Shown here: one piece after another, positions 12,003-38,249 of the stretch
Layout: each line of letters begins with the position of its first letter
Numbering within the stretch: position 1 is the stretch's first letter
Source of the DNA: an uncultured Bacteroidales bacterium
GTDB taxonomy: Bacteria > Bacteroidota > Bacteroidia > Bacteroidales > Paludibacteraceae
Assembly (NCBI GenBank): GCA_902769535.1
Contig: CACXPH010000014.1
Location: forward strand, 1-39,860
Reading direction: 5' to 3'
Length of the DNA: 39,860 nt
Program-made: the position numbers and the translations under genes
The notes under the pieces: generated by a model
Database searches by the model: none
Seen by the model: the letters and a program-made list of their open reading frames with translations, nothing else
Told to the model about the DNA's origin: nothing

Positions 12003-13043
12003 ATGAAACATTTTTACTCTCTCTTATTCGTAGTAGCTCTTGCGTTGAATTCCTTCGCGCAGGAATATACGCTGGTTTGGAATGAGGATTTTACAGATGC
12101 ATCACTGGACCAAGCGGTCTGGAATATTGAAGTCAACGGTGACGGTGGCGGCAATAACGAACTCCAGTACTACTGCGAGAAGGCAGTGACGCTCGGTGTG
12201 GAGCCCGAGACAGGTAAGCAATGTCTCATCCTGACGGCCACCAAAGAGAATTATATGGGCAAGAAATGTACGTCCGGGCGTGTGAACACCAAGAACAAGA
12301 TGACGTACACTTTTGGTCGCATTGATGCGCGTATCAAGTTCCCCAAGACCGCCAATGGTCTTTGGCCGGCATTTTGGCAGATGGGCAATAACTACGACCA
12401 GGTAGGTTGGCCGCGTTGCGGTGAGACGGATATCATCGAGTTAGGGCATCAGAACGCGTTCAGCAAAGGCACGCAGGACCGCTATTTCAATGGCGCGATG
12501 CATGTGGGTCGTCAGTGGGATGCCGTATGGAGCGAAGCGAAGTCCGTTACGTGGGATTATTCCGTAGAGGACACCTTCCATATCGTGACGATGATCTGGA
12601 CACCGAACTCGATCGAGATGTACATGGATAAGGATGCACACCCGGAGAAAGAACCCTATTTCAAAGCCAAACTGGAACCCAATGACGACGAGTGGTACAA
12701 CAGACAAGTGATTTTCGGTAAACCGAACTTCGTCATTGCTAACCTCGCCGTAGGCGGTAATTTCCCGGGTATATGGGATATAAATGGTATCTCTGCGCTT
12801 TCTGAAGGTCCGCGGAAGATGTATATCGACTGGATCCGTATTTACCAACAAGGCACAGCCTCGGAAACCTTTGTTTGCCCGTCCGCTTCCGACCCGATCG
12901 AGCCGGAGAAAGTGAGTGGATTAGAGCAGCCTACCTCCGACTCCTCCCTGAAGGGAAGAGGGGAAAAGGTACTTCGTGACGGACAGATTCTTATTCGCCG
13001 CGGCGAACATGTTTATACAATAACCGGTCAAATTGTACAATAA
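12003..13043 (+). CDS. Secreted GH16 beta-glucanase with C-terminal module
   Basis: 346 residues with a cleavable signal peptide (MKHFYSLLFVVALALNSFAQ) and no lipobox. The GH16 domain spans about 21-285 (YTLVWNEDFTDASLD to MYIDWIRIYQQ). The active site is GETDIIELGH, giving Glu141, Asp143 and Glu146. Tryptophan-rich subsite signatures LWPAFWQMG are present. After a linker comes the shared C-terminal module (KVLRDGQILIRRGEHVYTITGQIVQ), with a palindromic mini-repeat in-frame inside the linker (12929-12964, residues about 309-321). It differs from its two GH16 neighbours in not being a lipoprotein, so the C-terminal module may direct its location. It starts 6 bases after the previous stop, and its stop overlaps the next ATG (TAATG). 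Confidence 0.93.
   Translation: MKHFYSLLFVVALALNSFAQEYTLVWNEDFTDASLDQAVWNIEVNGDGGGNNELQYYCEKAVTLGVEPETGKQCLILTATKENYMGKKCTSGRVNTKNKMTYTFGRIDARIKFPKTANGLWPAFWQMGNNYDQVGWPRCGETDIIELGHQNAFSKGTQDRYFNGAMHVGRQWDAVWSEAKSVTWDYSVEDTFHIVTMIWTPNSIEMYMDKDAHPEKEPYFKAKLEPNDDEWYNRQVIFGKPNFVIANLAVGGNFPGIWDINGISALSEGPRKMYIDWIRIYQQGTASETFVCPSASDPIEPEKVSGLEQPTSDSSLKGRGEKVLRDGQILIRRGEHVYTITGQIVQ
12929..12964 (+). repeat. In-frame palindromic mini-repeat, family CCTACCTCCGACTCCTCCCT, copy 1
   Basis: Block CCTACCTC-GACTCCTCCCTGAA (written with one gap for the variable base) with inner palindrome TCCCTGAAGGGA. It nearly matches 38138-38171, and a related inverted copy lies at 21818-21853. It encodes QPTSDSSLKG. 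Confidence 0.8.
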
Positions 13044-14002
13044 TGAAAAAGTCATTGCTCTTTGCTCTTTGCTCTTTAGTCCTGAGTGCTTGCGCCAAAC
13101 CCGAATGGCAACTGGTCTGGTCCGATGAGTTCGATGCGGACACGCTCAATACTGCATATTGGAATACCGAGGATAATGCCCGCGGAGGAGGAAATGCCGA
13201 ACTGCAGTACTACACGCCGAAGAATATCACGATGGAGGTTCATCCGGTGACGGGTGACCGCTGTCTGGTGCTTAACGCGCAACGCGAGGATTATAAGAAT
13301 CGTCCGTGTACCTCTGCGCGCCTGAATACGCACGACAAGGTGACGGTGGAGTACGGTAAGGTGGAAGCACGAATAGCCTTCCCGTACACGGCTGACGGTC
13401 TCTGGCCGGCGTTCTGGATGTTAGGCAACAACCTTGCCAAGAACTTAGGCAATGACGATTCGATTGACCAACAGGCAGCGCAACTGGCTAACGAAGGTCG
13501 GGTAGTTTGGCCGAAATGCGGTGAGATAGATATCTGCGAGATGGGGCATCACTTCGGCATTGAGAACGGCATCCAGGACCGCTATTTCAATGGTGCGTGC
13601 CACTGGGGTGAGTCGTTTAATAACGGTGCGTATCCGAACATCGGTATGTTCCGTACGGAGGATTATCCGGTGCAGGGAGACTTCCATCTGTTCACGCTCA
13701 TCTGGTCGGAAGACTCAATCGCGATGTACCTCGATCAGGACAAGTATCCGGAGGTAGAACCGTATTTCCAACTGTCGCTGCGCGGCAAACAGATCAACGA
13801 ACCGGGGCATTATTTCAACCATCCGTTCTATCTGGTGCTGAACCTGTCGGTAGGTGGTTTCTTCCCGAACATGCCGGCAGCAGAGAAATATCCGGAAGTC
13901 ATCACGGCGGATGATCCTTCTTTCCAACGCGTGACGGCTCTGCCGGAAGATGGCACTCCCGTCAAGATGTATGTAGATTATATAAGAGTATATAAGAAAT
14001 GA
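13043..14002 (+). CDS. GH16 beta-glucanase lipoprotein
   Basis: 319 residues. Lipoprotein signal peptide ends LSAC (Cys17). The rest is a GH16 domain from WQLVWSDEFDADTLN to MYVDYIRVYKK, without accessory modules. The active site CGEIDICEMGHH gives Glu161, Asp163 and Glu166. It is close to the 12003 enzyme (GGGNAELQYY, RCLVLNAQREDYKNRPCTSARLNT in parts), so the two look like tandem duplicates that diverged. Small inserts near residues 130-150 and 255-295 may reshape subsites. It overlaps the previous gene by one base and the next by four (ATGA). Confidence 0.93.
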   Translation: MKKSLLFALCSLVLSACAKPEWQLVWSDEFDADTLNTAYWNTEDNARGGGNAELQYYTPKNITMEVHPVTGDRCLVLNAQREDYKNRPCTSARLNTHDKVTVEYGKVEARIAFPYTADGLWPAFWMLGNNLAKNLGNDDSIDQQAAQLANEGRVVWPKCGEIDICEMGHHFGIENGIQDRYFNGACHWGESFNNGAYPNIGMFRTEDYPVQGDFHLFTLIWSEDSIAMYLDQDKYPEVEPYFQLSLRGKQINEPGHYFNHPFYLVLNLSVGGFFPNMPAAEKYPEVITADDPSFQRVTALPEDGTPVKMYVDYIRVYKK

Positions 14003-15351: not shown

Positions 15352-18335
15352 AAAACGTACAAGGACAGTTTATAACGATTAATGGGGAGCGGTTCTATGA
15401 GATCGCTAACTACGATGCGATGCAGCCGTTCTTTATCTCGCTGGCATCGGATACGGACCTATGGATGTATCTGTCTTCGACAGGAGGTTTAACCTGCGGT
15501 CGTAGAAGTCCTGCTGAGGCACTCTTCCCGTACTATACGGACGATAAGATCACCGAGAGTTTCGAGTTCACCGGTCCGCGTACGATAATAAAGGTGAAAG
15601 GTGAAAGGTTAATGGTTAAAGGAGAACTCCTTTGGAGGCCCTTCTCTAATCTTCAACAAGACGTTTTTGACCTTACACGTAAGATTGCGAAATCGCTGGT
15701 AGGTAACCAGATCGTTTTCTGCGAAGAGAACCACACTTTAGGACTTCGTTTCTCCTATGTCTGGGCACCGGCCGGTAAGCATGGTTGGGTACGTCGGGCA
15801 ACGCTGGAGAACCTCACCGACAAGCCGCTGGATATCGACCTGAAGGATAGCTTGATGAACGTCTTGCCGGCAGGCGTAGAGCGTAAGACGCAGAATGAGT
15901 TCTCGACCCTCGTGGACGGATATAAGAAAACCGAACTGGTACCCGGTACGTCTCTTGCGCTCTTCCGTATGGAGGCCATCCTCGTGGATCGTGCAGAGCC
16001 GTCCGAGTCCCTTACTTGCAATACCGTCTATGCACTCGGTCTGCCGAAAGATACAGACTATTCCAGGACCGAATCGAAAGGTGTACGCGGTGCGTTTGTC
16101 GCTCATTCACTCATTCACTCATTCACTCATTCACTCACATGGTACAACGTGTTGGACGTGAGCAAAGACGCGGTGGCGGTGCATGAACTCATGCATTTCG
16201 TTAAGCAACCGGATGCGATCGCGCAGATCGAAGCAGCCATGGTGCAGTCCACCGAGACACTCAAACGCATCGTGGCGCAGAACGACGGAGTGCAGCATAC
16301 AGGCGACGAGGCGAACGATGCACGCCATTTTGCGAACGTGCTGTTTAATACGATGCGTGGTGGTTATTACCTAACGTATCCGCCTACGTCCGATACGCAA
16401 GACCTGCCGCTGACTTTCGGTCGTCGGCACGGCGATCCTTCGCGTCCGTGGAACCTCTTCTCTATCCGCGTGCAGGACGAAAACGGCAAACCGGTAGTGG
16501 CCTACCAAGGTAACTGGCGCGATATTTTCCAGAACTGGGAAGCACTCTCCTATAGTTATCCGCTCTTTATCAATCATATAATCGCCAAGTTCCTTAATGC
16601 GACGACGGCAGACGGTTATAACCCGTACCGCATCTCCAATGAGGGAATAGACTACGAAGTGATTGAACCGGAGAACCCGTGGTCGAATATCGGTTATTGG
16701 GGAGACCACCAGATCATTTACTTGCTTAAGCTGCTGGAACTTAGTTACGCACACGATCCGGAGAAACTGCAGGCCTTGCTCAACGAGCGTCGGTTTGCGT
16801 TCGCCAATGTGCCGTACCGTTTGAAGAGTTATGCCGAGATAGTAGCCGATCCGAAGAACAGTATTCGTTTTGATGACGAGGAGCATAAGCGTATCCAAGC
16901 GCTCATCCCGACGATGGGTGCGGATGCCAAACTGCTGCTGGATGCAAACGGACAGATTCGTCGCACGACGATGGCGGACAAACTGCTGATCACCTTATTG
17001 ACCAAACTCTCTAACTTCGTTCCGAATGCCGGTATATGGATGAATACCCTTCGCCCGGAATGGAACGATGCAAACAATGCGCTCGTGGGCTATGGTGCGT
17101 CGATGGTGACGCTCTGTTATATGCGTCGGTATGTGGCGTTCCTGCAGTCGCTCATCGAGACCGATGTACAGATCGGCGCCGAAACGCTGGAGTTCTTACG
17201 CGCTATTCGTCATGCCTACCAGAATGGTAATTCGAAGCAGTTTACCAATATTGTGGGCACAGCCGGTGAGCGGTATCGTAATGCCGTCTATGCAGGATTG
17301 AGTGGAGAGACAGAAGTGTTGGAGAAAGCGGAACTGCAGGAGTTCTGCACCGCCACGCTGCATAAGATCGATGAGTCCATTCGTGCGAACAAACGCGAGG
17401 ACGGGCTGTACGAGGCGTATAACCTCATCCGCTTTACGGAGAACGACATTGAGATCAGTCACCTCTATCAGATGTTAGAAGGACAAGTGGCGGTGCTCAC
17501 GTCCGGAATTCTCAGTGGCGAAGAGTCCGCAGACCTGCTGGATGCCATGCGTGCTTCCGATCTCTACCGCGAGGATCAACGCAGTTATATGCTGTACCCG
17601 AACAGACGTCGTAAGACTTTCCTGGAACTCAATAACCTGCCTGAAGAGGCCAAGAACCTGCCGGTAGTGCAGAAATATATGGGTTCGATACTCAAGCAAG
17701 ACTGCGACGGTGGAATCCATTTCGATGCCCGCTTCCGCAATGCGAATGACCTGCCGGAGGAACTCAAAGACCTCTATGAACAAGTGTTCAACCATCACGC
17801 CTTCACCGGCCGTTCGGGCACGTTCTATAAATACGAAGGACTCGGGTGTATCTACTGGCACATGGTTTCCAAACTGCTGTTGGCGGTTGGGGAAACCATT
17901 GAAAGGGTGAGCGGTGAGCGGTTAGAGGTTATGGGACGCTTGCGCCATCATTACAATGCGATTCGCGAAGGAATCGGTTCGCATAAGAACCCACGCGAAT
18001 ACGGAGCATTCCCATTTGACCCATATTCGCATACACCGACCATGGCGGGTGCACAACAACCCGGCATGACCGGACAAGTGAAGGAAGATATTATCAGCCG
18101 CTGGTTCGAACTCGGTGTCTCGGTACACAACGGCCAGATAACGTTTGCACCGACCATGCTCACCGATGCGGACTTTGTCAACGGCGAGTTGCGTTTTACC
18201 TACTGCGGAACGGAGGTTGTTTATAAGCATTCAGCTGTCAGTGGTCAGTCGTCAGTTTTCAAGCTATCCAAGGAGCAGAGTGCGCATGTTTTCGCGCGAG
18301 ATGGTCAAATAAAACAGTTAATTATTGAGGTATGA
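15348..18335 (+). CDS. GH94-clan phosphorylase, probably GH149-type beta-1,3-glucan phosphorylase
   Basis: 995 residues, no signal peptide, so cytoplasmic. Recognisable parts: an N-terminal beta-sandwich (ANYDAMQPFFISLASDTDLW, SSTGGLTCGRRSPAEALFPYY); an (alpha/alpha)6-like core with NIGYWGDHQIIYLLKLLE, where Asp453 is the candidate general acid; and a C-terminal end with FDPYSHTPTMAGAQQPGMTG and QVKEDIISRWFELGV, typical of GH94-related phosphorylases. The length and WGDHQ motif fit GH149/GH161 better than the shorter GH94 cellobiose phosphorylases. The expected reaction is beta-1,3-glucooligosaccharide plus phosphate to glucose-1-phosphate plus a shortened chain. Four low-complexity in-frame inserts interrupt it (residues about 82-93, 252-265, 852-863, 962-972). 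It overlaps its neighbours by four bases at both ends. Phosphorylase clan is confident; family number less so. Confidence 0.8.
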   Translation: MKNVQGQFITINGERFYEIANYDAMQPFFISLASDTDLWMYLSSTGGLTCGRRSPAEALFPYYTDDKITESFEFTGPRTIIKVKGERLMVKGELLWRPFSNLQQDVFDLTRKIAKSLVGNQIVFCEENHTLGLRFSYVWAPAGKHGWVRRATLENLTDKPLDIDLKDSLMNVLPAGVERKTQNEFSTLVDGYKKTELVPGTSLALFRMEAILVDRAEPSESLTCNTVYALGLPKDTDYSRTESKGVRGAFVAHSLIHSFTHSLTWYNVLDVSKDAVAVHELMHFVKQPDAIAQIEAAMVQSTETLKRIVAQNDGVQHTGDEANDARHFANVLFNTMRGGYYLTYPPTSDTQDLPLTFGRRHGDPSRPWNLFSIRVQDENGKPVVAYQGNWRDIFQNWEALSYSYPLFINHIIAKFLNATTADGYNPYRISNEGIDYEVIEPENPWSNIGYWGDHQIIYLLKLLELSYAHDPEKLQALLNERRFAFANVPYRLKSYAEIVADPKNSIRFDDEEHKRIQALIPTMGADAKLLLDANGQIRRTTMADKLLITLLTKLSNFVPNAGIWMNTLRPEWNDANNALVGYGASMVTLCYMRRYVAFLQSLIETDVQIGAETLEFLRAIRHAYQNGNSKQFTNIVGTAGERYRNAVYAGLSGETEVLEKAELQEFCTATLHKIDESIRANKREDGLYEAYNLIRFTENDIEISHLYQMLEGQVAVLTSGILSGEESADLLDAMRASDLYREDQRSYMLYPNRRRKTFLELNNLPEEAKNLPVVQKYMGSILKQDCDGGIHFDARFRNANDLPEELKDLYEQVFNHHAFTGRSGTFYKYEGLGCIYWHMVSKLLLAVGETIERVSGERLEVMGRLRHHYNAIREGIGSHKNPREYGAFPFDPYSHTPTMAGAQQPGMTGQVKEDIISRWFELGVSVHNGQITFAPTMLTDADFVNGELRFTYCGTEVVYKHSAVSGQSSVFKLSKEQSAHVFARDGQIKQLIIEV
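15590..15626 (+). repeat. In-frame GTGAAAG tandem insert in the phosphorylase
   Basis: AAGGTGAAAGGTGAAAGGTT-type units encode KVKGERLMVKGE. A small perfect palindrome AAAGGAGAACTCCTTT overlaps its right end. Confidence 0.75.
16101..16138 (+). repeat. In-frame CTCATTCA tandem repeat in the phosphorylase
   Basis: Repeats of the 8-base unit CTCATTCA run nearly five times. Because 8 is not a multiple of 3, the frame rotates through the copies and gives AHSLIHSFTHSLT (residues 252-264). Confidence 0.9.
17901..17936 (+). repeat. In-frame GGTGAGC/GGTTAGAGG insert in the phosphorylase
   Basis: GTGAGCGGTGAGCGGTTAGA encodes VSGERLE and looks like the 15590 insert, with the unit GGTGARMGG. A residue gain relative to family members is expected but could not be tested. 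Confidence 0.55.
18232..18264 (+). repeat. In-frame CAGTGGTCAGT-type insert near the phosphorylase C-terminus
   Basis: CTGTCAGTGGTCAGTCGTCA contains three GTCAGT/GTCAG-like units and encodes AVSGQSSVF. Such units are common Bacteroidota spacer repeats. Confidence 0.55.
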
Positions 18336-19948: not shown

Positions 19949-22168
19949 ATGCGAAAATACATCCTTTTGTCACTCTGTGTCCTCCTTGTAAGCTCATGCG
20001 CAAAGAAAAGTGCCGAGGATCGTTTTATTGACGATTTGCTCTCCCGCATGACGCTGGAGGAGAAGATTGGTCAGATGAACCAACTCGACCCGTCCTACGA
20101 GTCCGAAGTCAAGGAGGCACTCATCCGCGAGGGCAGAGTGGGTTCGATTTTCAATATCGTCGATGCCAAAGAGGTGAACCGCCTCCAGCGTATGGCGGTG
20201 GAAGAGACCCGTCTGGGTATTCCGTTGGTAGTGGCACGCGATGTGATCCATGGCTATCATACCATCTATCCTATTCCGCTGGGACAAGGAGCAACCTGGA
20301 ACCCGGAACTCATTGAGCAGGCGGCGCAACTGACTGCGCGCGAAGCAATACAGGATGGTATCCGCTGGGCATTCTCACCGATGGTCGATGTAGCCCATGA
20401 CCCGCGTTGGGGACGTGTAGCCGAAGGCTATGGCGAAGATCCGGTTCTTACCTCTACCATGGGTGCTGCCACGGTACGTGGCTACCAGAGTCAAGGAATG
20501 GCTGCTTGCGTGAAGCATTTTGCTGGCTATTCGGTTTCCGAAGGCGGACGGGACTATAACACCACTTGGATTCCCGAGGTGCAGTTACGCGATATATACC
20601 TGCCGCCTTTCAAAGCAGCCCTCGATGCAGGCGCCATGAGTGTCATGTGTTCGTTCAATAACATGAACGGTTTTCCGTCATCCGCTAATCCGCATCTGAA
20701 TATCGATATCCTTCGCCATGAATGGCAATCAGACGCGTTGTTGGTGAGCGACTGGGGTTCCGGTTCAGACCTCGTGCCGCATGGGATGTGTGCGGATAAG
20801 AAAGACGCAGCACTGCGTTGTATCAATGCCCGCATGGAGATGGATATGGAAGGGAATATCTACACCGACTATCTGGCGGAACTGATTGCTGAAGGCAAGG
20901 TGAAGGAATCGCAGATTGACGAATGTGTGCGTTCTGTGCTGCGTCTTAAGTATCGTTTGGGTTTGTTTGATAACCCTTACGTACCGGAAGACGAACCGAC
21001 TTTCTATTCCGACGAAGCACTTGCTGCGGCTCAACAAACCGCCGAAGAGTCGGCTATTCTGCTGAAGAACGACGGCATTCTCCCATTAAACATTCAGCAT
21101 CCAACATTAAACATTCTCATCACCGGTCCATTAGCCGACCAGAAAAAAGAGCAACTTGGTACATGGGTCTTTGACGGCCAACCCGAACATTCGGTTACAC
21201 CTTTAGAGGTTTTCCGTTCTTTGAATATAAGCTATGAACCCGGTTTGACGTACAGTCGCGATAAGAACAAAGCCGGTATCGCTAAAGCCGTGGCAGCTGC
21301 GAAGAAAGCGGATGTTATTCTCTTCTTTGCCGGTGAGGAAGCTATTCTCAGTGGTGAAGCGCGGTGTCGTGCCGACATCAATCTGCCGGGTGCGCAGGCT
21401 GAGATGATGGACGCCTTGGCTGCTACCGGAAAACCTGTGGTGATGATCGTCATGGCAGGCCGTCCTCTCACGATAGGCAAACAAGTGGAACAAGCTGCGG
21501 CAGTGCTCTATGCTTTCCACGGAGGAACGATGGCCGGACCGGCATTATTTAACATCCTCACCGGACAAGCCGTGCCTTCCGGTAAGACACCGATCACGTT
21601 CCCGAAGATGGTAGGACAGATTCCGCTTTATTACAACCGTCATAACACCGGCCGTCCGTCGTATGACCCGCCGATGCTCATCGACTCGATTCCTATCGGC
21701 TGCCCGCAGTTCAGCATCGGTCAGTCGTCCTACTGGCTCGAGACACCGACGGAACCCCTCTTCCCCTTCGGCTTCGGCCTGAGTTATACCACCTTCGAAT
21801 ACGGATCGACGCGAATAGACACCCTTCCCTTTAGGGAGGGGCAGGGGGTAGGCTATTCTCTGTCGTGCTCTATTACTAACACGGGCAAGTACGACGCCTA
21901 CGAGGTGGCACAACTGTACACCCACCAGAAATCCGGTTATATGGTGCGGCCGTTGAAGGAATTGAAAGGTTTTGAGAAAGTCTATATTCCGGCAGGCGAG
22001 TCCAGAACGGTGACGTTTACCCTGACGGATGAGCAGTTGGGTTACTGGCATGAGTCGCATCATGACTTCGCATCTAAGGTATGGTTCGAGACCGATTCAG
22101 CGGACTATGAAGTCTGGATAGCACCGGACTCCCGCTGCCAGACAACGCCTGTTCAGCTGACCTTATAA
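19949..22168 (+). CDS. bglX: GH3 beta-glucosidase (BglX-like) lipoprotein
   Basis: 739 residues. The lipoprotein signal peptide ends LVSSC (Cys17). The GH3 N domain has RDVIHGYHTIYPIPLGQGAT, DPRWGRVAEGYGEDP and KHFAGY. The nucleophile is Asp268 in LLVSDWGSGSD. The GH3 C domain has the acid/base candidate Glu470 in ILSGEARCRADINLPGAQ. The C-terminal fibronectin-like domain starts FPFGFGLSYTTFEY. The expected role is release of glucose from beta-gluco-oligosaccharides in the periplasm or at the surface. Two in-frame mini-repeats are embedded: an ACATTAAACATTC-type repeat (residues about 379-390) and a palindromic insert (about 624-635, DTLPFREGQGVG). It is the last gene of the locus, and its stop meets the convergent gene's stop in TTATAA. 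Confidence 0.94.
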   Translation: MRKYILLSLCVLLVSSCAKKSAEDRFIDDLLSRMTLEEKIGQMNQLDPSYESEVKEALIREGRVGSIFNIVDAKEVNRLQRMAVEETRLGIPLVVARDVIHGYHTIYPIPLGQGATWNPELIEQAAQLTAREAIQDGIRWAFSPMVDVAHDPRWGRVAEGYGEDPVLTSTMGAATVRGYQSQGMAACVKHFAGYSVSEGGRDYNTTWIPEVQLRDIYLPPFKAALDAGAMSVMCSFNNMNGFPSSANPHLNIDILRHEWQSDALLVSDWGSGSDLVPHGMCADKKDAALRCINARMEMDMEGNIYTDYLAELIAEGKVKESQIDECVRSVLRLKYRLGLFDNPYVPEDEPTFYSDEALAAAQQTAEESAILLKNDGILPLNIQHPTLNILITGPLADQKKEQLGTWVFDGQPEHSVTPLEVFRSLNISYEPGLTYSRDKNKAGIAKAVAAAKKADVILFFAGEEAILSGEARCRADINLPGAQAEMMDALAATGKPVVMIVMAGRPLTIGKQVEQAAAVLYAFHGGTMAGPALFNILTGQAVPSGKTPITFPKMVGQIPLYYNRHNTGRPSYDPPMLIDSIPIGCPQFSIGQSSYWLETPTEPLFPFGFGLSYTTFEYGSTRIDTLPFREGQGVGYSLSCSITNTGKYDAYEVAQLYTHQKSGYMVRPLKELKGFEKVYIPAGESRTVTFTLTDEQLGYWHESHHDFASKVWFETDSADYEVWIAPDSRCQTTPVQLTL
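21082..21120 (+). repeat. In-frame AACATTAAACATTC-type insert in GH3
   Basis: CATTAAACATTCAGCATCCA is followed by another ACATTAAACATTC, encoding LNIQHPTLNI where GH3 proteins usually have a short charged turn before a VIGPLA-like strand. Confidence 0.7.
21818..21853 (-). repeat. In-frame palindromic mini-repeat, inverted copy in GH3
   Basis: Read on the minus strand it gives GCCTACCCCCTGCCCCTCCC, then TAAAGGGAAGGG: the same family as 12929-12964 and 38138-38171 but inverted. The inner palindrome is CCCTTCCCTTTAGGGAGGG. Confidence 0.8.
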
Positions 22169-24439
22169 ACCCAAGTGAATACGGAAACGCATTCCCCAAT
22201 GAAATGTAGGTGTGAATGACCACACGGAATATAGGTCACAAACACGCAGAATATTTCCGATACCTACGCCGATCTCGGTGTAGGTATTTTGTTGGTTCAG
22301 ACTGTGGTTATACCCATAGGCAACTTTGGCTTCTACTAATTCCCGCAGATGCAACCAGCGAATACCCGGAATGAGGTTGAAGAGAATACCCATACCGTTC
22401 CATTCGGTCTGGAGGGCTACATATTTGTCTGCGACTAGGTCATTGCCGTGCAGGAACGTGAAGCGGTACGGATCGTAGGCATAACCCTGGTTGGCATTGG
22501 CCTGCCATAGGAACGCCTGGGGTGCATTACCAAAGATAGCTCCTGCTTGCAGCGCGTAGGTCAACGTACCACCCATCCCTAAGTTTGCATGCTGGGTCAG
22601 CATGACGCGTAAGTGCGCATACAAGCCCTCGTTCCAATGTCCAAACTCCGTACCGAGATACAGCACCGGATACTTGCCGGAATAAGCGTAACGGCGCATG
22701 AAATAACCATCGTACTTACGCTCTCCCCAACTAAGCCGCGCGATAGCGCTCAGCGACTGATAGGCATAGCCGTCCTGCCAGCCTGCACGGATATACGTAT
22801 GCGTCTCTACGTGCTCACTCCAATCGGCGAACCAGTGGAACTGCAGTTGGCGTTGACGCAGCGCCGTGTTGACATAGAGACTGTCGCGGTGCAGCGCCTC
22901 GAAGGCGTAGGCAGTGAAGTCGAAGTTACCCCAACCCATGGAGTTCTCGCGCTGCAGTCGGTCGAAATCATCCACCTCGGACCATACATACCGGTCGTTG
23001 TACTCCAACTGCATGATGTGCTTGCGCGGAGTAGGAAGAGCTACCGAGATACGACCCATCCCTTTTGGACTGCGGTCCTTAAAACCATACCCCACCGAGG
23101 CCTCGAGACTCACGACCTTCGACATCTTCTCGTTCGTGCGGAAAGGCAAACCGATGTGCACGCCTTCGTGCTGGTTCACCTGCAGGATCTCCTCCACGTG
23201 ACCGATATCGACCGGTGTGCCCGTAGGTATATATCCCGTCGTGGCAATTGTCGCGATCCATTTCGCCGTGCGAACAAGCGGCAGACTGTCCAGCGCATTG
23301 AAAGCGGAGTCGGCTTCATCATTGAGCGGCTCCGCCGCGCTCATTGAGCTCGCTTGCGAGCGCTCATTGAGCAAGCTCTGCTTGCGCTCATTTTTCAACT
23401 CTGTCGTCAGCAACAGAGTTGGAAACACCGTCCCTGCTTTTTCGCTCTTGATGGATACATCGAGCAATGCGGATATATGCTCGTCGGCAATCGTACCGTC
23501 CGGTGCCAGCACCTGCGATACGTGCAGCGTGTTCACGTAGTTAACCGCCACCTCGGCGGGCACATACGCCGTCAGAGACCGCAACGCATAGGTCGTGGTA
23601 TCAATCACCATCGAACCGTTGAACGTCGCGTAGAACGCGTTTCTAGTACGGAAATAGATGGTGTCGCCTTCCAGGTAATAGCGGTAATAGAGGTTACCTC
23701 CTGCCGCCAGAGGCGAGAGGAACGCATGGCCCATCAGGCTGACGCTGTTCGCATAGAAATTGAGGTTGCCTTCGCCGCCTATCAGGCTGGAGTAGTCGGT
23801 GGAGGTTAGGATGAGTGCTTGGGTGCGTTGGTCATTAGCGGGAATCATCTCCTGGCCGGTTAGTCGGAACGACTGCGTCTCGCGGTACAGCGGCATGATA
23901 TACGTCGAGTCTTCTTGGGCGATCATGCCCGCTTGCAGACTGCGCCATAAGGCGCGGCGCAAGTGCCGTTTGTTGATCTGCGAGACATAGAGCGTCTGTT
24001 CGCGTTGCAGCGTAGATGTCCGTTCCGGATGCAGCGTGCGGTCATTGTCCGGTCGGTGTGCCCGTACCTGACGCAGTAGTTCCAGAGCCGGGTTCTCGTT
24101 TGGTGCCACGACGATCTCCGTCAGCGTAGCCGCTTTCTCCCGCATCGTCACCTGCAGCCCCGCCATCGTGCCGGGTTCGATATCATAACGCTGGGTATAA
24201 TACCCCACGGCCGAGAAAACCAACTGACTCTTGGCACTCATATCGACACGCAAAGCGTAGTTACCATTCTCGTCCGAAGTGGTACCTATCTTCGTGCCCC
24301 GAAAATGAATATTGACATTCGGGATCGCCTCGCCGGTCGTCTCATTGACGATCTCCCCGACGATGATGGTCTCGACGGCTCGAATAGACAGCGAGCAAAG
24401 CAGCAGAAGAACTAATATGAGGCGTTGGCAGGATGGCAT
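22163..24439 (-). CDS. DUF5686-like outer-membrane protein with carboxypeptidase-regulatory-like domain
   Basis: 758 residues. A signal peptide (QRLILVLLLLCSLSIRAVE region) precedes a carboxypeptidase-D regulatory-like domain (about 25-110, GEIVNETTGEAIPNVNIHFRG, TSDENGNYALRVD). Then comes TEIVVAPNENPALELLRQV and a long beta-rich region ending WGMRFRIHLGL, as in the DUF5686/CarboxypepD_reg-like outer-membrane family of Bacteroidota. The biochemical role is not known. A 73-base palindromic insert (23320-23392) adds about 24 residues (NERKQSLLNERSQASSMSAA plus a few more) between domains. The ATG at 24437-24439 lies inside xerD (28-base overlap), so it is the last gene of the rpmH operon. Confidence 0.82.
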   Translation of the reverse strand: MPSCQRLILVLLLLCSLSIRAVETIIVGEIVNETTGEAIPNVNIHFRGTKIGTTSDENGNYALRVDMSAKSQLVFSAVGYYTQRYDIEPGTMAGLQVTMREKAATLTEIVVAPNENPALELLRQVRAHRPDNDRTLHPERTSTLQREQTLYVSQINKRHLRRALWRSLQAGMIAQEDSTYIMPLYRETQSFRLTGQEMIPANDQRTQALILTSTDYSSLIGGEGNLNFYANSVSLMGHAFLSPLAAGGNLYYRYYLEGDTIYFRTRNAFYATFNGSMVIDTTTYALRSLTAYVPAEVAVNYVNTLHVSQVLAPDGTIADEHISALLDVSIKSEKAGTVFPTLLLTTELKNERKQSLLNERSQASSMSAAEPLNDEADSAFNALDSLPLVRTAKWIATIATTGYIPTGTPVDIGHVEEILQVNQHEGVHIGLPFRTNEKMSKVVSLEASVGYGFKDRSPKGMGRISVALPTPRKHIMQLEYNDRYVWSEVDDFDRLQRENSMGWGNFDFTAYAFEALHRDSLYVNTALRQRQLQFHWFADWSEHVETHTYIRAGWQDGYAYQSLSAIARLSWGERKYDGYFMRRYAYSGKYPVLYLGTEFGHWNEGLYAHLRVMLTQHANLGMGGTLTYALQAGAIFGNAPQAFLWQANANQGYAYDPYRFTFLHGNDLVADKYVALQTEWNGMGILFNLIPGIRWLHLRELVEAKVAYGYNHSLNQQNTYTEIGVGIGNILRVCDLYSVWSFTPTFHWGMRFRIHLGL
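23320..23392 (-). repeat. In-frame triple ATTGAGC-palindrome-GCGCTCATT element
   Basis: Three consecutive units of ATTGAGC, a short palindromic core, and GCGCTCATT. The cores are GGCTCCGCCG, TCGCTTGCGA and AAGCTCTGCTT. Related units occur between genes at 27287-27350. Confidence 0.85.
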
Positions 24440-25305: not shown

Positions 25306-26539
25306 GAATCGTCATCTTTTTAGCCGGATAGAGTGCAGCGAGCAGACCCAACAACAGCACGATGACTGCTACCATCAGCACGTCTGTCGGTTGTACCTGC
25401 ACCGGATAGGCGGAAATCACATACTCGCTGCCGGTACCTAACTTCAGCCAACCGAAATGCTGTTGACCCAAGCATAGCAGCACACCGAGCACCAGACCAC
25501 TGAGAGTACCCAAAGTAGAGATGAACCATCCTTCTAACAGGAACACGCGACGGATGGTTGGCTCGTCTGCACCGAGGTGCGAAAGGATGCGGATGTCTTC
25601 GCGCTTGTCGATAATGAGCATCGAGAGCGAACCGATGATGTTAAAGCTCGCAATAAGCAGGATGAAGACCAGCAGCAGCACCGTTAGCAACTTCTCTATA
25701 TGCAGTATCCGGAAGAAATCCGCCTGCTGCTCGTAGCGATCCAGCACCTTATATCCTGGACCGAGCGTTTTCGAAATCTCATCCTTTAACCCCGTAACCC
25801 GTAACCCGTCACCCGTAACCGGCTGCACACGCAGCGCACTCGCCGTGTGTTCGTCGTAATCAAACAGCCGCTGCGCGAGAGGTAGCGAGACGAGCATCAG
25901 TTGGTCGTCATACTCCAGTTGGTTGACGGCGAACGTACCGGCGATGAATGCATGCTCATGACGCAGCGACAAGTCCGGACGGAGTAGGTTGATAGTTCCC
26001 GTGCGCTCCGGTGCATACAGATGCAGCGCACCCGTGAAATGGGCGTTGATACCGATCTGCGATGCCAGACCGCGACCGAGTACTGCACGATCGAAAGCTC
26101 CGTCCCAGACAGAGAAATATCCGTCCGTGATGATCGAGTCGATATGTGCCGTCTGCGTGAAGAGCGAATCGACACCCATCACACGCGCCGGCATCTGATG
26201 GTCCTTGTAGCGGATGAGCGCCGTCTGCTCCAGTTGCATCGAGATGGCTTCTATGTCCTCGCGCGCGTATAGCGAAGCAATCGGTGCCGTATCGGTCCGC
26301 AGCGTCTGACCTTCTGACGGCACAACCAACAGCACCGGGTCGAACTCCGAGAACATCTGCTCCACCAGCACACCGAAACCGTTCATCACCGACAATACAC
26401 AAATCATCGCCGCCGTAACAACAGCTACAGCAGCGGCACTGATACCGGAAACGATATTGATGGCATTATGCCCCTTCTTCGAGAAGAGGTACCGCCATGC
26501 GATATGGGATTCGAGATTAGCCATGGAGGAGTTCATCAA
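25298..26539 (-). CDS. LolC/LolE-type FtsX-like ABC transporter permease
   Basis: 413 residues. One N-terminal membrane segment (about 25-50), a large periplasmic domain and three C-terminal segments, the FtsX/MacB-like layout. The start IAWRYLFSKKGHNAINIVSGIS is typical of lipoprotein-releasing permeases, and SFNIIGSLSMLIIDKREDI with RILSHLGADEPTIRRVFLLEG (parts) is the conserved cytoplasmic coupling region. The listed ATG overlaps rbfA by 23 bases; the internal Met6 at 26524 (MANLESHIAWRY) would overlap by eight and looks more typical. A GGTTACGGGT-type repeat is inserted in-frame (25786-25824, VTGDGLRVTG). The expected partner ATPase LolD is not in the window. Confidence 0.9.
   Translation of the reverse strand: MMNSSMANLESHIAWRYLFSKKGHNAINIVSGISAAAVAVVTAAMICVLSVMNGFGVLVEQMFSEFDPVLLVVPSEGQTLRTDTAPIASLYAREDIEAISMQLEQTALIRYKDHQMPARVMGVDSLFTQTAHIDSIITDGYFSVWDGAFDRAVLGRGLASQIGINAHFTGALHLYAPERTGTINLLRPDLSLRHEHAFIAGTFAVNQLEYDDQLMLVSLPLAQRLFDYDEHTASALRVQPVTGDGLRVTGLKDEISKTLGPGYKVLDRYEQQADFFRILHIEKLLTVLLLVFILLIASFNIIGSLSMLIIDKREDIRILSHLGADEPTIRRVFLLEGWFISTLGTLSGLVLGVLLCLGQQHFGWLKLGTGSEYVISAYPVQVQPTDVLMVAVIVLLLGLLAALYPAKKMTIHE
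25786..25824 (-). repeat. In-frame GGTTACGGGT tandem insert in the permease
   Basis: On the minus strand, GGTTACGGGTGACGGGTTAC continues with GGGTTACGGGG and encodes VTGDGLRVTGLK (residues about 239-251) in the periplasmic domain. The unit is GGGTTAC with small changes. Confidence 0.8.
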
Positions 26540-27184: not shown

Positions 27185-27274
27185 TTGAGAAAAAGTCGGT
27201 TGAAATCACGAATCGCACATATTCTTCTTCTTGCGCTGCTGACAGGCGGCATGCCTGCAGCAATTAATTCTTAA
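27185..27274 (+). pseudogene. Remnant of a secreted-protein gene (signal peptide only)
   Basis: A TTG-initiated frame (27185 or 27200) gives LKSRIAHILLLALLTGGMPA then AINS and a TAA inside an AATTCTTAATTC repeat. The peptide is an almost ideal Sec signal sequence placed just after a strong promoter. The mature part is absent and repeat sequence follows at once, so the body of the gene was probably lost or replaced. Translation today is doubtful because no ATG is left. Confidence 0.5.
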
Positions 27275-27352
27275 TTCTTAATTCCTCCGCAAGCTCGCTT
27301 GCAGCATTGAGCAACTTGTTGCGCTCATTCGTGAAGTTTCGCTTCGCATGTG
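27263..27352 (+). repeat. AT-rich tandem units plus a row of short palindromes
   Basis: ATTAATTCTTAATTCTTAAT is followed by three palindromes: GCAAGCTCGCTTGC, GAGCAACTTGTTGCGCTC and CGAAACTTCG-like (GAAGTTTCGCTTC). The middle one has the ATTGAGC...GCGCTCATT frame of the insert at 23320-23392. Confidence 0.75.
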
Positions 27353-27709: not shown

Positions 27710-27738
27710 CAGCGTCAAACAATAAGGAGGCCGATATC

Positions 27739-33237: not shown

Positions 33238-34302
33238 ATGAAAAAAATCTGTTTTATCCTCGCAGCCCTCTTCTGCTGCGCAATGATGAACGCTGAGACC
33301 TACGGTCTGAATGTAGGCGGCGTACAAGTAACATCCGACAATGCAGCCGATATCTTCGGTGATGGCACGGTCTCGTACGATGCGTCTCTCGCCGAGTTGA
33401 CGCTCAACAATGCCGATATCCGCGTTGATTGCAACGAGATCAACAAAGGCGCTATCGTGGCTACGGGCGACCTGACGATCGTTGTCAAGGGCCAGAACAA
33501 CTATATCGCTGTCAATAATCTGAATGCCTACACGGGTGCTATCCAGTCCTTGGGTGCGCTGACAATCACGAGCGAGATCTATCCCACCGAGTTTGCCAAA
33601 CTGCAGATCGTCTGCGGCAACGGATGTGCGCTCTATGCCATGAGCGGCAATATATGGTTGATTCGCGAAGTGAATATTGATATCAAGGGCGGTAGTAATG
33701 ACTTTGGATGTATCAAGGCAATGAACGGCAATCTGCATATTAATGGCGCTACCGTCTCGATGCTTCCGGCATGGATCCGCGTTAGCGGAGAGTTTATCCT
33801 TTCCGCCTCTGAGATCACTTCCCCGACCGATGCGGAGATTAGAAACGGCAAGATCGTTCGCGAAAACGGAGGAAACGAATACAGTAACCAGCAGCAAGTG
33901 GTCATCTCCTCACTCTTGCGCAAACTGATCTATGGCGCTACGCCGAAGAACAAAGGTAATTCTGTCTGGCTGGAAGGCTTTAGTACGACCGAGAGTCAGG
34001 CTGTAGGATGGGTGGAACTAGCCGAGCATATCAACCTCAAAGCCACGCCTGCTGAGGGCTATACCTTCACCGGATGGTATAATAGTAAAAACGAACTTCT
34101 CAGTACCGAAAACCCCTATACGAACCAGCTGATGACGGAGAACACTACCCTTATCTATGCTCAGTTTGAGCAGGAAGAGCAAGGCATCGAAAATACAAAT
34201 CATAAATCTGAAATCATAAATCCTAAATTTATCAAAGACGGTCAGTTGCTCATCGAGCGCAACGGAAAGACCTATAATGCTTTAGGCGCAGAGGTGAAGT
34301 GA
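33238..34302 (+). CDS. Secreted protein: 'GDG' beta domain, InlB-like repeat, C-terminal module
   Basis: 354 residues. The signal peptide MKKICFILAALFCCAMMNAE is nearly the same, at DNA level too, as that of 30819. The mature start GVQVTSDNAADIFGDGTVSYDA (in parts) begins a repetitive beta domain up to about 225, with LTIVVKGQNNY and LTITSEI rungs. An InlB B-type repeat follows (about 245-315, LKATPAEGYTFTGWYNSKNE). The end is the shared C-terminal module (IKDGQLLIERNGKTYNALGA). Its linker carries an in-frame AAATCATAAATCC-type repeat (34189-34231). Likely exported and surface-associated; ligand unknown. Confidence 0.85.
   Translation: MKKICFILAALFCCAMMNAETYGLNVGGVQVTSDNAADIFGDGTVSYDASLAELTLNNADIRVDCNEINKGAIVATGDLTIVVKGQNNYIAVNNLNAYTGAIQSLGALTITSEIYPTEFAKLQIVCGNGCALYAMSGNIWLIREVNIDIKGGSNDFGCIKAMNGNLHINGATVSMLPAWIRVSGEFILSASEITSPTDAEIRNGKIVRENGGNEYSNQQQVVISSLLRKLIYGATPKNKGNSVWLEGFSTTESQAVGWVELAEHINLKATPAEGYTFTGWYNSKNELLSTENPYTNQLMTENTTLIYAQFEQEEQGIENTNHKSEIINPKFIKDGQLLIERNGKTYNALGAEVK
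34189..34231 (+). repeat. In-frame AAATCATAAATC insert in C-terminal linker
   Basis: Units like CAAATCATAAATCTGAAATC and ATAAATCCTAAAT encode NTNHKSEIINPK just ahead of the conserved FIKDGQ. Confidence 0.7.
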
Positions 34303-34387: not shown

Positions 34388-34429
34388 GCGTGCTTAATGA
34401 ACGAATTAACAATTTAATACTATGCAATT

Positions 34430-36022
34430 ATGCGTAAAATTTTCCTTCTTTTTGCAGCCCTCTGCTGCACTATCATGGTCAATGCCGAGGAGATTATACA
34501 AAATGGCATCCGCTACAGTCTTATCAAGGAATATCGTCAGGCTATAGTGGTTAGTAACAAAACATCACAGGGCAACTATGCTAATTTACAAGGGAAGGTA
34601 ACAATCCCAGCTTCCATTCAATACGACGGAACAACATACAACATATATATTATAGATAAAGTTGCGTTTTGTCAGTGTAGTACCATCACCTCTGTTACCA
34701 TAGAAGAAGGCGTTTATGAAATCGGTATAGGTGCGTTTAGATCATGTCCGAATTTGGAGAGTGTCACTCTGCCGGAAAGTGTAAATTCCATCAAATGGGC
34801 TGCCTTCCGGGACGATGCTCGATTGACTTCCCTTACTCTGCCGAAGGGTTTGCAAGTGATCCCGAGCGAGATGTGTTCCTATTGCCCCTCTTTGAAGTCT
34901 ATTACGCTTCCGGAAAATCTGGTGGCTATTGACACCTGTGCCTTTTTGAATTGCGCTGCGCTTACTTCGATCGTGATTCCGAATAAAACAGCACTTATTT
35001 GTAATCAGGCTTTCTTTGGCTGTACTTCGTTGGAAACGGTTGATATCCCTGCGAGTGTTGCAAGTATCGAAGAAAAAGCTTTTCATGGATGTTACAATCT
35101 GGAAACCATAAAATGCCGGATTACTTCGCCGCTGTCGATCAATGCGAATGTTTTTGAGAATGTTGTCTGCGCTAATGTCTCGCTCCATGTGCCCAATCAA
35201 AGTGTCAATGCGTACAAGGCACATAGTGTGTGGAAAGAGTTCTATGTGCTGCCCTTGAATTACACTATCAGCTTCGTTGTGAACGGCGCTACGGTATACT
35301 CGAAGCCGATGGAATGGGGAACACCTGCAGCTACGGTGAAAGAAGAAGCGAAAGCGGTTGAACAACAAATATCCATTCCGGCAGGTAAGGTATTCAAACA
35401 CTGGAATCCCGAGATAACTGCTGTGACGAAAGATCAAGCGTACGAAGCGGTTATTGAGGCTAACTCCACCATCACGAAATGCACTATCAGCTTTGTGTAC
35501 GGCTCAAAATACGCCTCCTTCCTCTTGGACGAAGGGTCTCCGAAATCTGATGTGGAATACCTTGCAGAGCTGTTCCTTGAGCAAATATATGTTCCTATGG
35601 ATATGAAGTTTAAATATTGGGAACCCGAGCTTGCTGCTGTTACAGATAACCAGACATATAATGCCGTTTTTGGTTATATCTACCTGAATTACTACACCAT
35701 TAAGTTTGTTATTGATGGCAAGACGGCTCTCTCTGTCGCGCTGAAATATGGTACAGAAGATTGGGTGGTTGAGGGATATGCGAATGCGGTGGCTGCCAAT
35801 GCGGTTTACCCGGAAGGAATGACTTTCAAAGATTGGGATAAATATTTCAACAAAGTGACCGAAGACGAGACCTACACCGCCCGTCTCCGCCCCATCGGAG
35901 AAGGAATAGAAGAGGTTAGTCAAGAGTCGAAAGTCAAGAGCCAAAAGGTGATCAGGGACGGTCAGTTGATTATTGAGCGGAACGGCAAGATCTACAATGC
36001 TTTAGGCACAGAGGTACAATGA
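34430..36022 (+). CDS. BspA-like LRR protein with three InlB-like repeats and C-terminal module
   Basis: 530 residues. Signal peptide MRKIFLLFAALCCTIMVNAE. Residues about 60-280 are LRR_5/BspA-type repeats (ITSVTIEEGVYEIGIGAFRS, LESVTLPESVNSIKWAAFRD, TSLETVDIPASVASIEEKAF). They are followed by three repeats of about 65-70 residues (YTISFVVNGATVYSKPMEWG, CTISFVYGSKYASFLLDEGS, YTIKFVIDGKTALSVALKYG) of the InlB B-repeat type. It ends with the shared module (IRDGQLIIERNGKIYNALGT). A CAAGAGTCGAAAGTCAAGAG repeat is inserted in its linker. BspA proteins are surface adhesins; the partner is unknown here. The next gene overlaps by ATGA. Confidence 0.9.
   Translation: MRKIFLLFAALCCTIMVNAEEIIQNGIRYSLIKEYRQAIVVSNKTSQGNYANLQGKVTIPASIQYDGTTYNIYIIDKVAFCQCSTITSVTIEEGVYEIGIGAFRSCPNLESVTLPESVNSIKWAAFRDDARLTSLTLPKGLQVIPSEMCSYCPSLKSITLPENLVAIDTCAFLNCAALTSIVIPNKTALICNQAFFGCTSLETVDIPASVASIEEKAFHGCYNLETIKCRITSPLSINANVFENVVCANVSLHVPNQSVNAYKAHSVWKEFYVLPLNYTISFVVNGATVYSKPMEWGTPAATVKEEAKAVEQQISIPAGKVFKHWNPEITAVTKDQAYEAVIEANSTITKCTISFVYGSKYASFLLDEGSPKSDVEYLAELFLEQIYVPMDMKFKYWEPELAAVTDNQTYNAVFGYIYLNYYTIKFVIDGKTALSVALKYGTEDWVVEGYANAVAANAVYPEGMTFKDWDKYFNKVTEDETYTARLRPIGEGIEEVSQESKVKSQKVIRDGQLIIERNGKIYNALGTEVQ
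35915..35946 (+). repeat. In-frame GTCAAGAGTCGAAAGTCAAG insert in C-terminal linker
   Basis: AGTCAAGAGTCGAAAGTCAA with a further GAGCCAAAA encodes VSQESKVKSQ ahead of KVIRDGQ. Confidence 0.75.
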
Positions 36023-36672: not shown

Positions 36673-36701
36673 ATCATAAAGTTTTTAAAATCAATACAAT
36701 T

Positions 36702-38249
36702 ATGAAAAAATTTACTCTTTTCCTCGCAGCCCTCTGCTGCTGCGCAATGATGAACGCCGAGCGGATACAATACCAAGGTATCTGGTATGAAGCGGACCCG
36801 GTTGCAAAAACCGCTATCGTTACCTATGAAACGCTTAGCACGGATGGTTCGAACTATGCTTCTTTGACCAGTGTAAATCTGGAGCTTGTCTGCCTTGACG
36901 AATATGGCAATAGTTATCGTATTATCGGTATAGGTGAAAAGGCATTTCATTCGAATAACACTATTACAGACGTGGACATTCCAGAATTTGTGAAAACCAT
37001 CGGCAGATATGCGTTTAACAATGCTAAAGCGTTACAAGCCATTTATCTATCGAATAGCAAATTAGAGACAATTGAGGAATACGCTTTCTACGGATGTTCT
37101 GCATTAAACAGCATCGTAACTCCATCCTCTCTGAAAACGATTGACCAATATGCGTTCTGTAATTGCCCGGCGTTGGCGAATGTGCATATTAATGAGGGAG
37201 CAACATCTATCGGCAACTGTGCGTTCCGTTGGTGCTCGGGCTTGAAGTACTTGCGTTTGCCTTCTACGCTCACCTCTATGGGCGATTATGCCTTCCAGAA
37301 CTGTGCATCATTAAAAGAAATGCATTGTCATCTGGCTTCCCCTATCGATTTAGGGGAACATGCGAGTATCACCTTTGCCAATGCGCCGGCAACGGCTAAA
37401 GTGTATGTAGCCGGCAATCCTGCGGACTTCCGCATTACTGCGGGATGGCATATCTTGCCTATTCAGGATGACATACTCGTTACATCAGATGGCTTTAACT
37501 ACATCTGCCATACCGATCACACAGCTACCCTGACTTGGGATACACACGAACTCAAAGGTAACTACATAAAACTATCCGGAGCAAAGCAGATCCCTTCATC
37601 TGTCACGATGGGCGGTAACGAGTATATGGTAAAAAGAATAGCAAAAAAAGCGTTAATGTATGCCTTCAATATCACAGAATTGACCATTTCCGACGAAGTC
37701 ACTACTATTGACTCCGAGGCATTCAAGAACTGTGGTATGACGACTTTGAACCTGCCCGCGCATATCAAAACAATACCGGCGGATATGTGCAATGGCGTGA
37801 GAAATTTAACAGAGATAAAGATTCCCGATGAAGTAGATACCATCAAAAATAATGCTTTTAGCGGCTGCCGTGCACTATCCAAACTGGTCCTTCCTGCGGG
37901 GCTGAAATACATAGGGCGCTACGCGTTTGATTACTGTGGCGAATTAAAAAGAATTTATAATTACAATCCTGTACCTATTGTTTTTGACAATAATGACGCT
38001 GCTACTATTTTTAGGAATGTTCCTTGTGCTGATGTTACGCTGTTTGTGCCTTTCGGTAGCAAAGAAGCTTATCAGAACGCGCTTGTATGGAAAGATTTCT
38101 ACATAGAGCAATTTGACTCGCACGAGGGCATTAATCAGCCTACCTCTGACTCCTCCCTGAAAGGAGGAGAGAAATTCCTTCGTGACGGTCAACTCTACAT
38201 TGAGCGGCACGGTAAGACCTATAACGCCCTCGGCGCGGAGCTGAAATAA
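36702..38249 (+). CDS. BspA-like LRR protein with C-terminal module
   Basis: 515 residues. Signal peptide MKKFTLFLAALCCCAMMNAE, sharing DNA-level identity with the start of 33238. Two LRR_5 blocks: about 70-240 (IGEKAFHSNNTITDVDIPEF, LKTIDQYAFCNCPALANVHI) and about 310-470 (VKRIAKKALMYAFNITELTI, IPDEVDTIKNNAFSGCRALS). They are separated by a non-repeat spacer (YICHTDHTATLTWDTHELKG). It ends with the shared C-terminal module (LRDGQLYIERHGKTYNALGA) preceded by a palindromic mini-repeat (38138-38171). A surface or secreted adhesin-like role is inferred from the family. Confidence 0.9.
   Translation: MKKFTLFLAALCCCAMMNAERIQYQGIWYEADPVAKTAIVTYETLSTDGSNYASLTSVNLELVCLDEYGNSYRIIGIGEKAFHSNNTITDVDIPEFVKTIGRYAFNNAKALQAIYLSNSKLETIEEYAFYGCSALNSIVTPSSLKTIDQYAFCNCPALANVHINEGATSIGNCAFRWCSGLKYLRLPSTLTSMGDYAFQNCASLKEMHCHLASPIDLGEHASITFANAPATAKVYVAGNPADFRITAGWHILPIQDDILVTSDGFNYICHTDHTATLTWDTHELKGNYIKLSGAKQIPSSVTMGGNEYMVKRIAKKALMYAFNITELTISDEVTTIDSEAFKNCGMTTLNLPAHIKTIPADMCNGVRNLTEIKIPDEVDTIKNNAFSGCRALSKLVLPAGLKYIGRYAFDYCGELKRIYNYNPVPIVFDNNDAATIFRNVPCADVTLFVPFGSKEAYQNALVWKDFYIEQFDSHEGINQPTSDSSLKGGEKFLRDGQLYIERHGKTYNALGAELK
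38138..38171 (+). repeat. In-frame palindromic mini-repeat, copy in the BspA-like gene
   Basis: CCTACCTCTGACTCCTCCCT then GAAAGGAGGAGA. It nearly matches 12929-12964, more than 25 kb away, and encodes the same peptide QPTSDSSLKG. Confidence 0.85.

Follow-up and report, generated by a model that had tools for sequence, protein, structure and literature searches.

Short repeats probably gained and replaced recurrently inside conserved genes of a Paludibacteraceae genus

The subject of this report is a set of short repeats that lie in frame inside the genes of an uncultured Bacteroidales bacterium of the family Paludibacteraceae. The window, by which we mean the whole stretch of DNA analysed, spans 39,860 nucleotides (contig CACXPH010000014.1 of assembly GCA_902769535.1) and is contig 14 of a 1.887-Mb genome, which is in 39 contigs and 85% complete. 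Positions 3479-26539 form a beta-1,3-glucan-type utilisation region with SusC/SusD-like genes (a pair, recognised by inspection), GH16-type genes, a GH3 gene and a GH149-type phosphorylase, several glycoside hydrolases standing alongside the pair. The phosphorylase, gene 15348, is a relative of the beta-1,3-oligosaccharide phosphorylase 6hq6 (E 1.7e-253). A first-pass annotation of the window had reported low-complexity or palindromic units inside eight genes, and such units were found in frame in all eight. They are chiefly tandem arrays of 7-base units (heptamer arrays) and copies of a mini-element, AGCCTACCCCNNNCCCCTCCCTRAAGGGAAGGGAG, which is palindromic and about 35 bp long. Heptamer arrays were scored at lag 7; those called strong pass the lag-7 threshold, and weaker ones, below it, were found with Tandem Repeats Finder (TRF). 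The repeats located in the eight genes and three arrays in spacers are as follows.

12924..12965, plus strand: palindromic mini-element in the C-terminal linker of the GH16 gene 12003, read as EQPTSDSSLKGRGE
15591..15626, plus strand: strong heptamer array of the AAAGGTG family in the GH149-type phosphorylase gene 15348, read as KVKGERLMVKGE
16101..16142, plus strand: period-8 array, 4.5 copies of CTCATTCA with 100% match, in gene 15348, read as AHSLIHSFTHSLTW
17901..17936, plus strand: strong heptamer array of the GGTGAGC family in gene 15348, read as ERVSGERLEVMG
18228..18263, plus strand: weak heptamer array GTCAGTN (lag-7 score 10) in gene 15348, read as HSAVSGQSSVFK
21089..21115, plus strand: diverged heptamer array CATTNAA in the GH3 gene 19949, read as NIQHPTLNI (TRF)
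21821..21859, minus strand: palindromic mini-element with 0 mismatches to the pattern on that strand, in the GH3 gene 19949, whose own strand reads TLPFREGQGVGYS
23312..23392, minus strand: conserved 9-mer CTCATTGAG alternating with three different hairpins, in the DUF5686 gene 22163
25784..25819, minus strand: strong heptamer array GGTTACG in the LolC/E-type permease gene 25298, read as VTGDGLRVTGLK
34195..34230, plus strand: weak heptamer array AAATCAT in gene 33238, in the linker before the C-terminal tail, read as TNHKSEIINPKF (TRF)
35915..35950, plus strand: weak heptamer array AGTCAAG in gene 34430, in the linker before the C-terminal tail, read as VSQESKVKSQKV (TRF)
38133..38171, plus strand: diverged palindromic mini-element, outside the 3-mismatch pattern, in gene 36702, in the linker before the C-terminal tail, read as NQPTSDSSLKGGE
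6667..6704, no strand: spacer heptamer array GAATTAA (lag-7 scoring and repeat search)
27264..27284, no strand: spacer heptamer array TTAATTC, an inverted match to 6663-6687
38251..38280, no strand: spacer heptamer array CTGAATA, directly behind gene 36702

Of the heptamer arrays in the eight genes, seven in total, three are strong and four weak or diverged; beside them stand one period-8 array, the mini-element in three copies (one diverged) and one array of the conserved 9-mer with hairpins. In genes 33238, 34430 and 36702, two heptamer families and the element occupy the same linker position, before a similar DGQLxIER stretch of the tail; the element copy there, at 38133-38171, is 87% identical to 12927-12965. 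The element pattern matched the window three times, at two sites, compared with a mean of 0.00 in 100 shuffles. The first-pass view that the inserts resemble units of the spacers holds for the heptamers, which recur at the three spacer positions given above. It does not hold within the window for the element, both of whose pattern sites are in genes, nor for the hairpin array of gene 22163. The latter was not supported as a dispersed family: in a 440-kb sample of the genome (20 stretches of 20 kb plus the window), its 9-mer gave 16 hits versus 2 for the reversed 9-mer, two of the 16 being the array itself and the others single hits in ordinary open reading frames (ORFs). A similar array, with a conserved linker alternating with hairpins whose stems are all different, is present in one relative (L074, 12883-12946), and the differing stems look as though fold-back copying had produced each hairpin. 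When four inserts or spacers were folded as DNA, only the DUF5686 array beat its shuffles (z -2.0), and the element did not stand out. The window has two further arrays. That at 13055-13077, in an ORF, falls within a signal peptide and may be ordinary low complexity. The spacer array at 8325-8369 is centred on CTAG with a spacing of 8-9 bases, and the Lpd gene of two other loci (L402 and L389) has a similar CTAG array within its coding sequence.

The heptamer arrays form a genome-wide class. With ORFs defined by simple longest-first calls rather than annotation, the 440-kb sample held lag-7 arrays at densities per 100 kb of 9.3 in ORFs and 122 in spacers; an order-2 Markov control gave 0.0. 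Within ORFs, densities of 0.0-0.2 were found at lags 4-6 and 8-11, and only the multiples 14 and 21 approached lag 7 (6.6 and 2.7); in spacers, lags 8 and 11 were raised too (16 and 32 per 100 kb). Counted individually, 34 of the 76 arrays lie wholly in ORFs and 42 do not, a strong bias to spacers (p about 4e-28, binomial). The class was then compared among loci from close relatives of the same genus (51 loci, 960 kb), from other members of the family (10 loci) and from other Bacteroidales (19 loci); these sequences are related by kinship, so that counts are not independent events. The genus loci carry 10.1 arrays per 100 kb in ORFs and 114.8 in spacers, about an eleven-fold difference, with arrays in 44 of the 51 loci; the gene content of these loci overlaps, so that a part of the arrays is shared through descent. 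Densities fall to 3.6 and 35.6 in the rest of the family (11 arrays) and to 2.0 and 30.6 in the rest of the order (15 arrays), from which we conclude that the class is not confined to the genus, though it is denser there. The units are diverse yet non-random: 174 arrays fall into 80 classes, compared with about 160 for random words, and the top 20 classes hold 55% of the arrays versus 20% by chance.

With regard to the palindromic element, a whole-genome pattern search allowing up to 3 mismatches found 27 sites in this genome and 0 for the reversed pattern. Together with the heptamer densities, this bears out the first-pass suggestion of short repeats throughout the genome, and other copies of both abound. 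When the copies are aligned, AGCCTACCCC is common to them, with an imperfect 20-bp palindrome behind it; the conserved part measures about 35 bp, and the flanks are unrelated. Of the 23 sites that were read, 21 are in ORFs and 2 in spacers (p 0.68 versus the coding fraction). In a wider set of 95 distinct sites, 83 are in ORFs, 1 is at an ORF edge and 11 are in spacers, an ORF share slightly below the coding fraction of 0.93 (binomial p 0.047). Palindromes taken as a general class in ORFs remained near the control (23.7 versus 14.6 per 100 kb), so that only specific families were counted. A search for exact repeated 14-mers in the 440-kb sample was also no route to the inserts: the commonest were leaders of the AAAAGCAGTACCTTTG type, the element being too variable for exact words.

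The element is dispersed through unrelated genes, and 19 of its 21 ORF hosts in this genome have Pfam family matches. Named by Pfam family, these hosts include RsmH/MraW, a lipoamide-dehydrogenase-type oxidoreductase, FtsK, dihydrouridine synthase, ApbE, a sigma-54 response regulator with the insert inside its receiver domain, acyl-ACP thioesterase, a Na/Ca exchanger, ABC ATPases, an HU-domain protein and Mfd, the last with two copies. The earlier remark that repeats sit inside catalytic enzymes is well founded and extends to conserved genes: the element lies in RsmH, the lipoamide-dehydrogenase-type enzyme, FtsK, Mfd and the receiver domain, and the Pfam match spans the insert in the first two and in the receiver domain; the repeat peptide PTPDPSLEGRED lies within the response regulator. 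Copies in ORFs are read in several frames and on both strands (for example KPTPDPSLKGRE, AYPHPLPEGKG, SLPFREGVGVGS and LPSLQGGDGGRL). Only two copies use the frame that would run into TGA or TAA in the core, and both have a shift or a change of sequence.

Across the genus, with up to 2 mismatches allowed and subfamilies mixed, the element was matched in 56 of 81 genomes (453 hits in all, at most 50 in one), the other 25 being without a match to the pattern. Elsewhere in the order, hits came from 11 of 293 genomes and were mostly looser variants, at most 7 in each. A second subfamily, AACCTCTCCCCNNCCCTCCCCTCAAGGGAGGG, is common in some species and occurs in many genomes of the genus (e.g., G173). 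Among viral-classed IMG/VR contigs there were two exact matches, one copy lying in an ORF and one in a spacer; one is at positions 3314-3346 of the 66.9-kb contig L419 and the other is on L418. Two contigs are too few to say whether phages carry the element.

The comparison of orthologous sites, from which genes 12003, 33238, 34430 and 36702 were left out, showed that a given position is occupied by different repeats in different species. At the permease site, 38 distinct sequences include 10 strong arrays built from 7 different units, that of the window (GGTTACG) among them; at the GH3 site (21089-21115), 27 sequences include 5 strong arrays with 5 different units. Most of the sequences at these sites are consequently not strong arrays, and many look like decayed or ordinary loop sequence. 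The named relatives whose permeases are closest (at most 85-86% identity) are Bacteroidales/Paludibacteraceae assemblies, many of them from ruminants, and one orthologue from a metagenome-assembled genome (MAG), at L058, has an internal stop codon. The sites of gene 15348 show the same variety of repeats, and some relatives are reduced there to four residues; the 17901-17936 site is occupied by other repeats in some relatives, and a peptide similar to the period-8 insert at 16101-16142 was found in one relative (L169) and in none of the other aligned ones. The DUF5686 site is hypervariable, with serine runs, NPN runs or another palindromic family, read SVSPQDGLS, of which 10 copies, all in ORFs, were found in the loci examined. 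RsmH, the NtrC-like receiver domain and Lpd were chosen only for having the element in this genome, and their relatives show the element, other palindromes, heptamer arrays or short loops. In support of the first-pass interpretation, the alignments show relatives that are short or have other sequence, repeats included, at the RsmH, Lpd, NtrC-like, LolE, GH3, GH149 and DUF5686 sites. The same peptides were not seen at the same positions in other genera, which were aligned only for the permease and gene 15348. Some inserts are common to related species, namely that of GH3 in the window and L077 and that of Lpd in L388 and L390. Both classes, heptamers and element, are abundant, enter ORFs and stand in for each other at tolerant sites.

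Seven genes, picked for having an insert in this genome, were surveyed for indel segments. Of 737 such segments, 71 scored 10 or more at lag 7, compared with 0 of 1617 length-matched segments taken from conserved regions; palindromes with arms of 7 or longer occurred in 25 of the 737 and in 14 of the 1617. XerD and RbfA, picked since no arrays had been noted there, had no arrays in their matched stretches (50 orthologues of length 291-299 and 51 of length 109-111, respectively). In an AlphaFold model of RsmH (mean pLDDT 87, the predicted local distance difference test score), the insert at residues 192-204 lies between two helices as a loop with short strands (pLDDT about 80). In that of gene 15348 (mean pLDDT 74), inserts 1, 3 and 4 are placed at turns or loops, the third between two helices, and insert 2 spans a strand-turn-strand.

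Differences are visible even between sister species. Six aligned stretches of 95-97% identity contain 11 indel blocks, 9 of them in repeats as judged by eye, and two of the stretches have no indels. Loci L171 and L172, compared at gene 15348, are 97% identical over 6 kb and differ by a single indel block, net 27 bases, in which a CAAGTAC-type array faces a GTCAGCC-type array, both in frame. In the DUF5686 gene of L070 and L073 (97% over 19.7 kb), the former has a palindromic unit and the latter a heptamer array. Beside this stretch lies an ORF that we take to encode a D-Ala-D-Ala-ligase-like protein; L073 and L071 carry the element in its N-terminal loop, L070 has other sequence with a different palindrome, and L067 has a short loop only. 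In these alignments the events look as much like replacement of a loop segment as like insertion, and the earlier notion of clean insertion has to be weakened to that extent.

The first-pass annotation had also proposed selection for frame-preserving inserts. None of 117 distinct ORF arrays (440-kb sample plus the 51 genus loci) is closed in all six frames, versus 28 of 122 distinct spacer arrays, the mean number of open frames being 3.48 and 2.07, respectively. If survival required only that the used frame be open, a mean of 3.07 would be expected (95% 2.84-3.32), and the observed value (3.22-3.74) is close to it and slightly above. Filtering by frame is therefore visible in the ORF arrays, though the contrast with spacers is partly definitional, because an array inside an ORF must have one open frame. 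Where genes are intact, both classes keep their frames open.

Taking together the abundance of the repeats, the period of 7, the dispersal of the element through unrelated genes, the sharing of sites, the differences between sister species and the frame filtering, we consider that this genus probably has a continuing, recurrent gain and turnover of short repeats in ORFs, filtered to open frames and tolerant loops. An ongoing process would add, swap and erode 7-base arrays and the mini-element chromosome-wide, and within genes an event would survive if it fell in a tolerant loop, turn or linker and left the frame open. If only such events survive, the same few sites of a protein should gather successive unrelated repeats and intolerant proteins should stay clean. 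The heptamer arrays may come from slippage or template switching with a 7-base step, the element may be moved or copied as a single-strand hairpin by some enzyme or through fold-back DNA synthesis, and the repeat peptides would mostly be neutral passengers. Several points weigh against this interpretation. The heptamer vocabulary is too diverse to demonstrate copying from array to array; the near-proportional presence of the element in genes could also reflect slower decay there than in spacers; and no target-site duplication or exact insertion boundary is readable, because the loops differ throughout. The Y1 domain (PF01797) was not found in this 85%-complete genome, nor was a transposase or other writer identified; Y1 occurs in 25 of the 81 genus genomes without relation to element number (p 0.88), and a Y1/RAYT (REP-associated tyrosine transposase) mover has no support. 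Furthermore, three indels called coding break the frame (-8, +4 and -47), the first two near the ends of short or doubtful ORF calls (103 and 240 codons) and the third at the 3' end of the ligase-like ORF.

The first-pass annotation had assumed one process spreading all the repeats; the element is indeed copied, but spread is evident for it only, the heptamers may be made locally, and two unrelated classes had been lumped together. A serious possibility, somewhat short of probable, is that heptamers arise by slippage on the spot in fast-evolving loops, their vocabulary set by base composition and polymerase geometry, and that the element alone is dispersed. The diversity of units and the copy-number steps of 7 and 21 bases in one pair of loci (L074/L112) agree with this, as does a survey that found heptamers to be the commonest category of longer simple sequence repeats (SSRs) in most genomes, together with the proposal of a polymerase footprint (Mrazek 2007, as cited in PMC4679880). 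Pure slippage, however, alters copy number and not sequence, whereas unrelated arrays occupy one site in the 97% identical L171 and L172; the classes are also fewer than chance and concentrated in the top 20, though the overlap of the 51 loci in gene content tempers this last point. At the other extreme, one DNA-writing process (template switching, single-strand fold-back synthesis or some enzyme) might make both classes and keep overwriting the permissive loops of conserved enzymes, a natural linker-scanning engine outpacing point mutation genus-wide; we regard this version as doubtful.

Exchange of loops between species by homologous recombination, the new repeats being imported alleles, seems unlikely. 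At one site of gene 15348, L171 is closer to L002 than to its sister L172, and ruminant guts are the source of many named relatives; yet L171 and L172 are identical in the 20 bases shown on either side of the segment, and recombination would leave unexplained the origin of many repeats and the presence of one element in 21 ORFs of one genome. Retention for a function, as flexible protein linkers, phase-variable switches or DNA sites for a chromosome protein, is improbable: the element peptides are Pro/Gly-rich and hydrophilic and the modelled inserts of gene 15348 lie mostly at turns or loops, but between conserved flanks the insert varies from one close species to the next, and in other species it is short. 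As for switching, a change by one 7-base unit would disrupt the host gene; in sister pairs of at least 95% identity, the clear changes in mid-gene measure 27, 27, 3 and 3 bases. An artefact of assembly or gene calling would come to mind because MAGs or uncultured assemblies make up the named close relatives and the ORF calls follow the longest-first rule; it is very hard to credit, given identical features in MAGs of several projects, ORFs that are open across inserts in Pfam-supported genes, and individual inserts common to related species.

The presence of inserts in enzymes had been called unusual, and this does not stand, as there are precedents in Rickettsia and in genomes rich in repetitive extragenic palindromes (REPs). 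Rickettsia palindromic elements (RPEs), of 100-150 bp, enter ORFs of Rickettsia and Wolbachia without destroying the frame (Ogata 2000, 2002, as cited in PMC3767692). According to the available text of the same source, different RPEs or none are found at a given site in different species for some groups, and it was left open for some sites whether they are hotspots for insertions of different origin or hold diverged copies of one insertion. The present element likewise lies in ORFs without a frame break (21 of 23 and 83 of 95 sites), but its conserved core is about 35 bp, its host belongs to the Bacteroidales, it is about 87% inside ORFs and its sites are shared with unrelated heptamer arrays; the two are set apart by description. 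REPs, GTAG- or CGTC-tagged, are 20-40 bp palindromes with the tag at one end; in the accessible part of PMC3733652 they are mostly intergenic, some are intragenic, many of these in repair genes, and GTAG REPs go with RAYT transposases. Size and the possession of a tag (AGCCTACCCC) fit. As judged by inspection, GTAG can be read here on the opposite strand alone, beyond the hairpin, and the consensus does not have CGTC at an end; REPs are mostly extragenic, whereas spacers hold 11 of 95 element sites, and PF01797 is distributed as described above. Heptanucleotide repeats are known from cyanobacteria, Xanthomonas, Beggiatoaceae and some Bacteroidetes, mostly in spacers, with some in ORFs and one set near the end of purC in a Bacteroidetes species (available text of PMC4679880 and PMC4692102). 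The excess of period 7 and the spacer enrichment are common to those SSRs and the present arrays; the differences are that 34 of 76 arrays here are wholly in ORFs, that unit types are many and that unrelated arrays occur at orthologous sites. A literature search, with subscription papers outside its coverage, gave no account of such intragenic elements in Bacteroidetes, and the available part of a Porphyromonas repeat paper (PMC5771137) has nothing on intragenic repeats of this sort.

Loop indels are usually taken as ordinary drift; in the seven proteins surveyed about a tenth carry a recognisable 7-base array, so that their origin can be followed. The occurrence of unrelated sequences at one site in different species of a genus bears on the question left open for RPE sites. 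With at least 81 genomes, the genus offers a test bed for the entry of repeats into coding DNA, the 7-base step and the tolerance of proteins, and conserved enzymes of this gut-bacterial group carry repeat-made patches that differ between species. Lastly, the AAAAGCAGTACCTTTG-type leaders, which are presumably Bacteroidetes promoters, are repeated in the window at 314-459, 3298-3443, 27658-27716 and 34309-34367.

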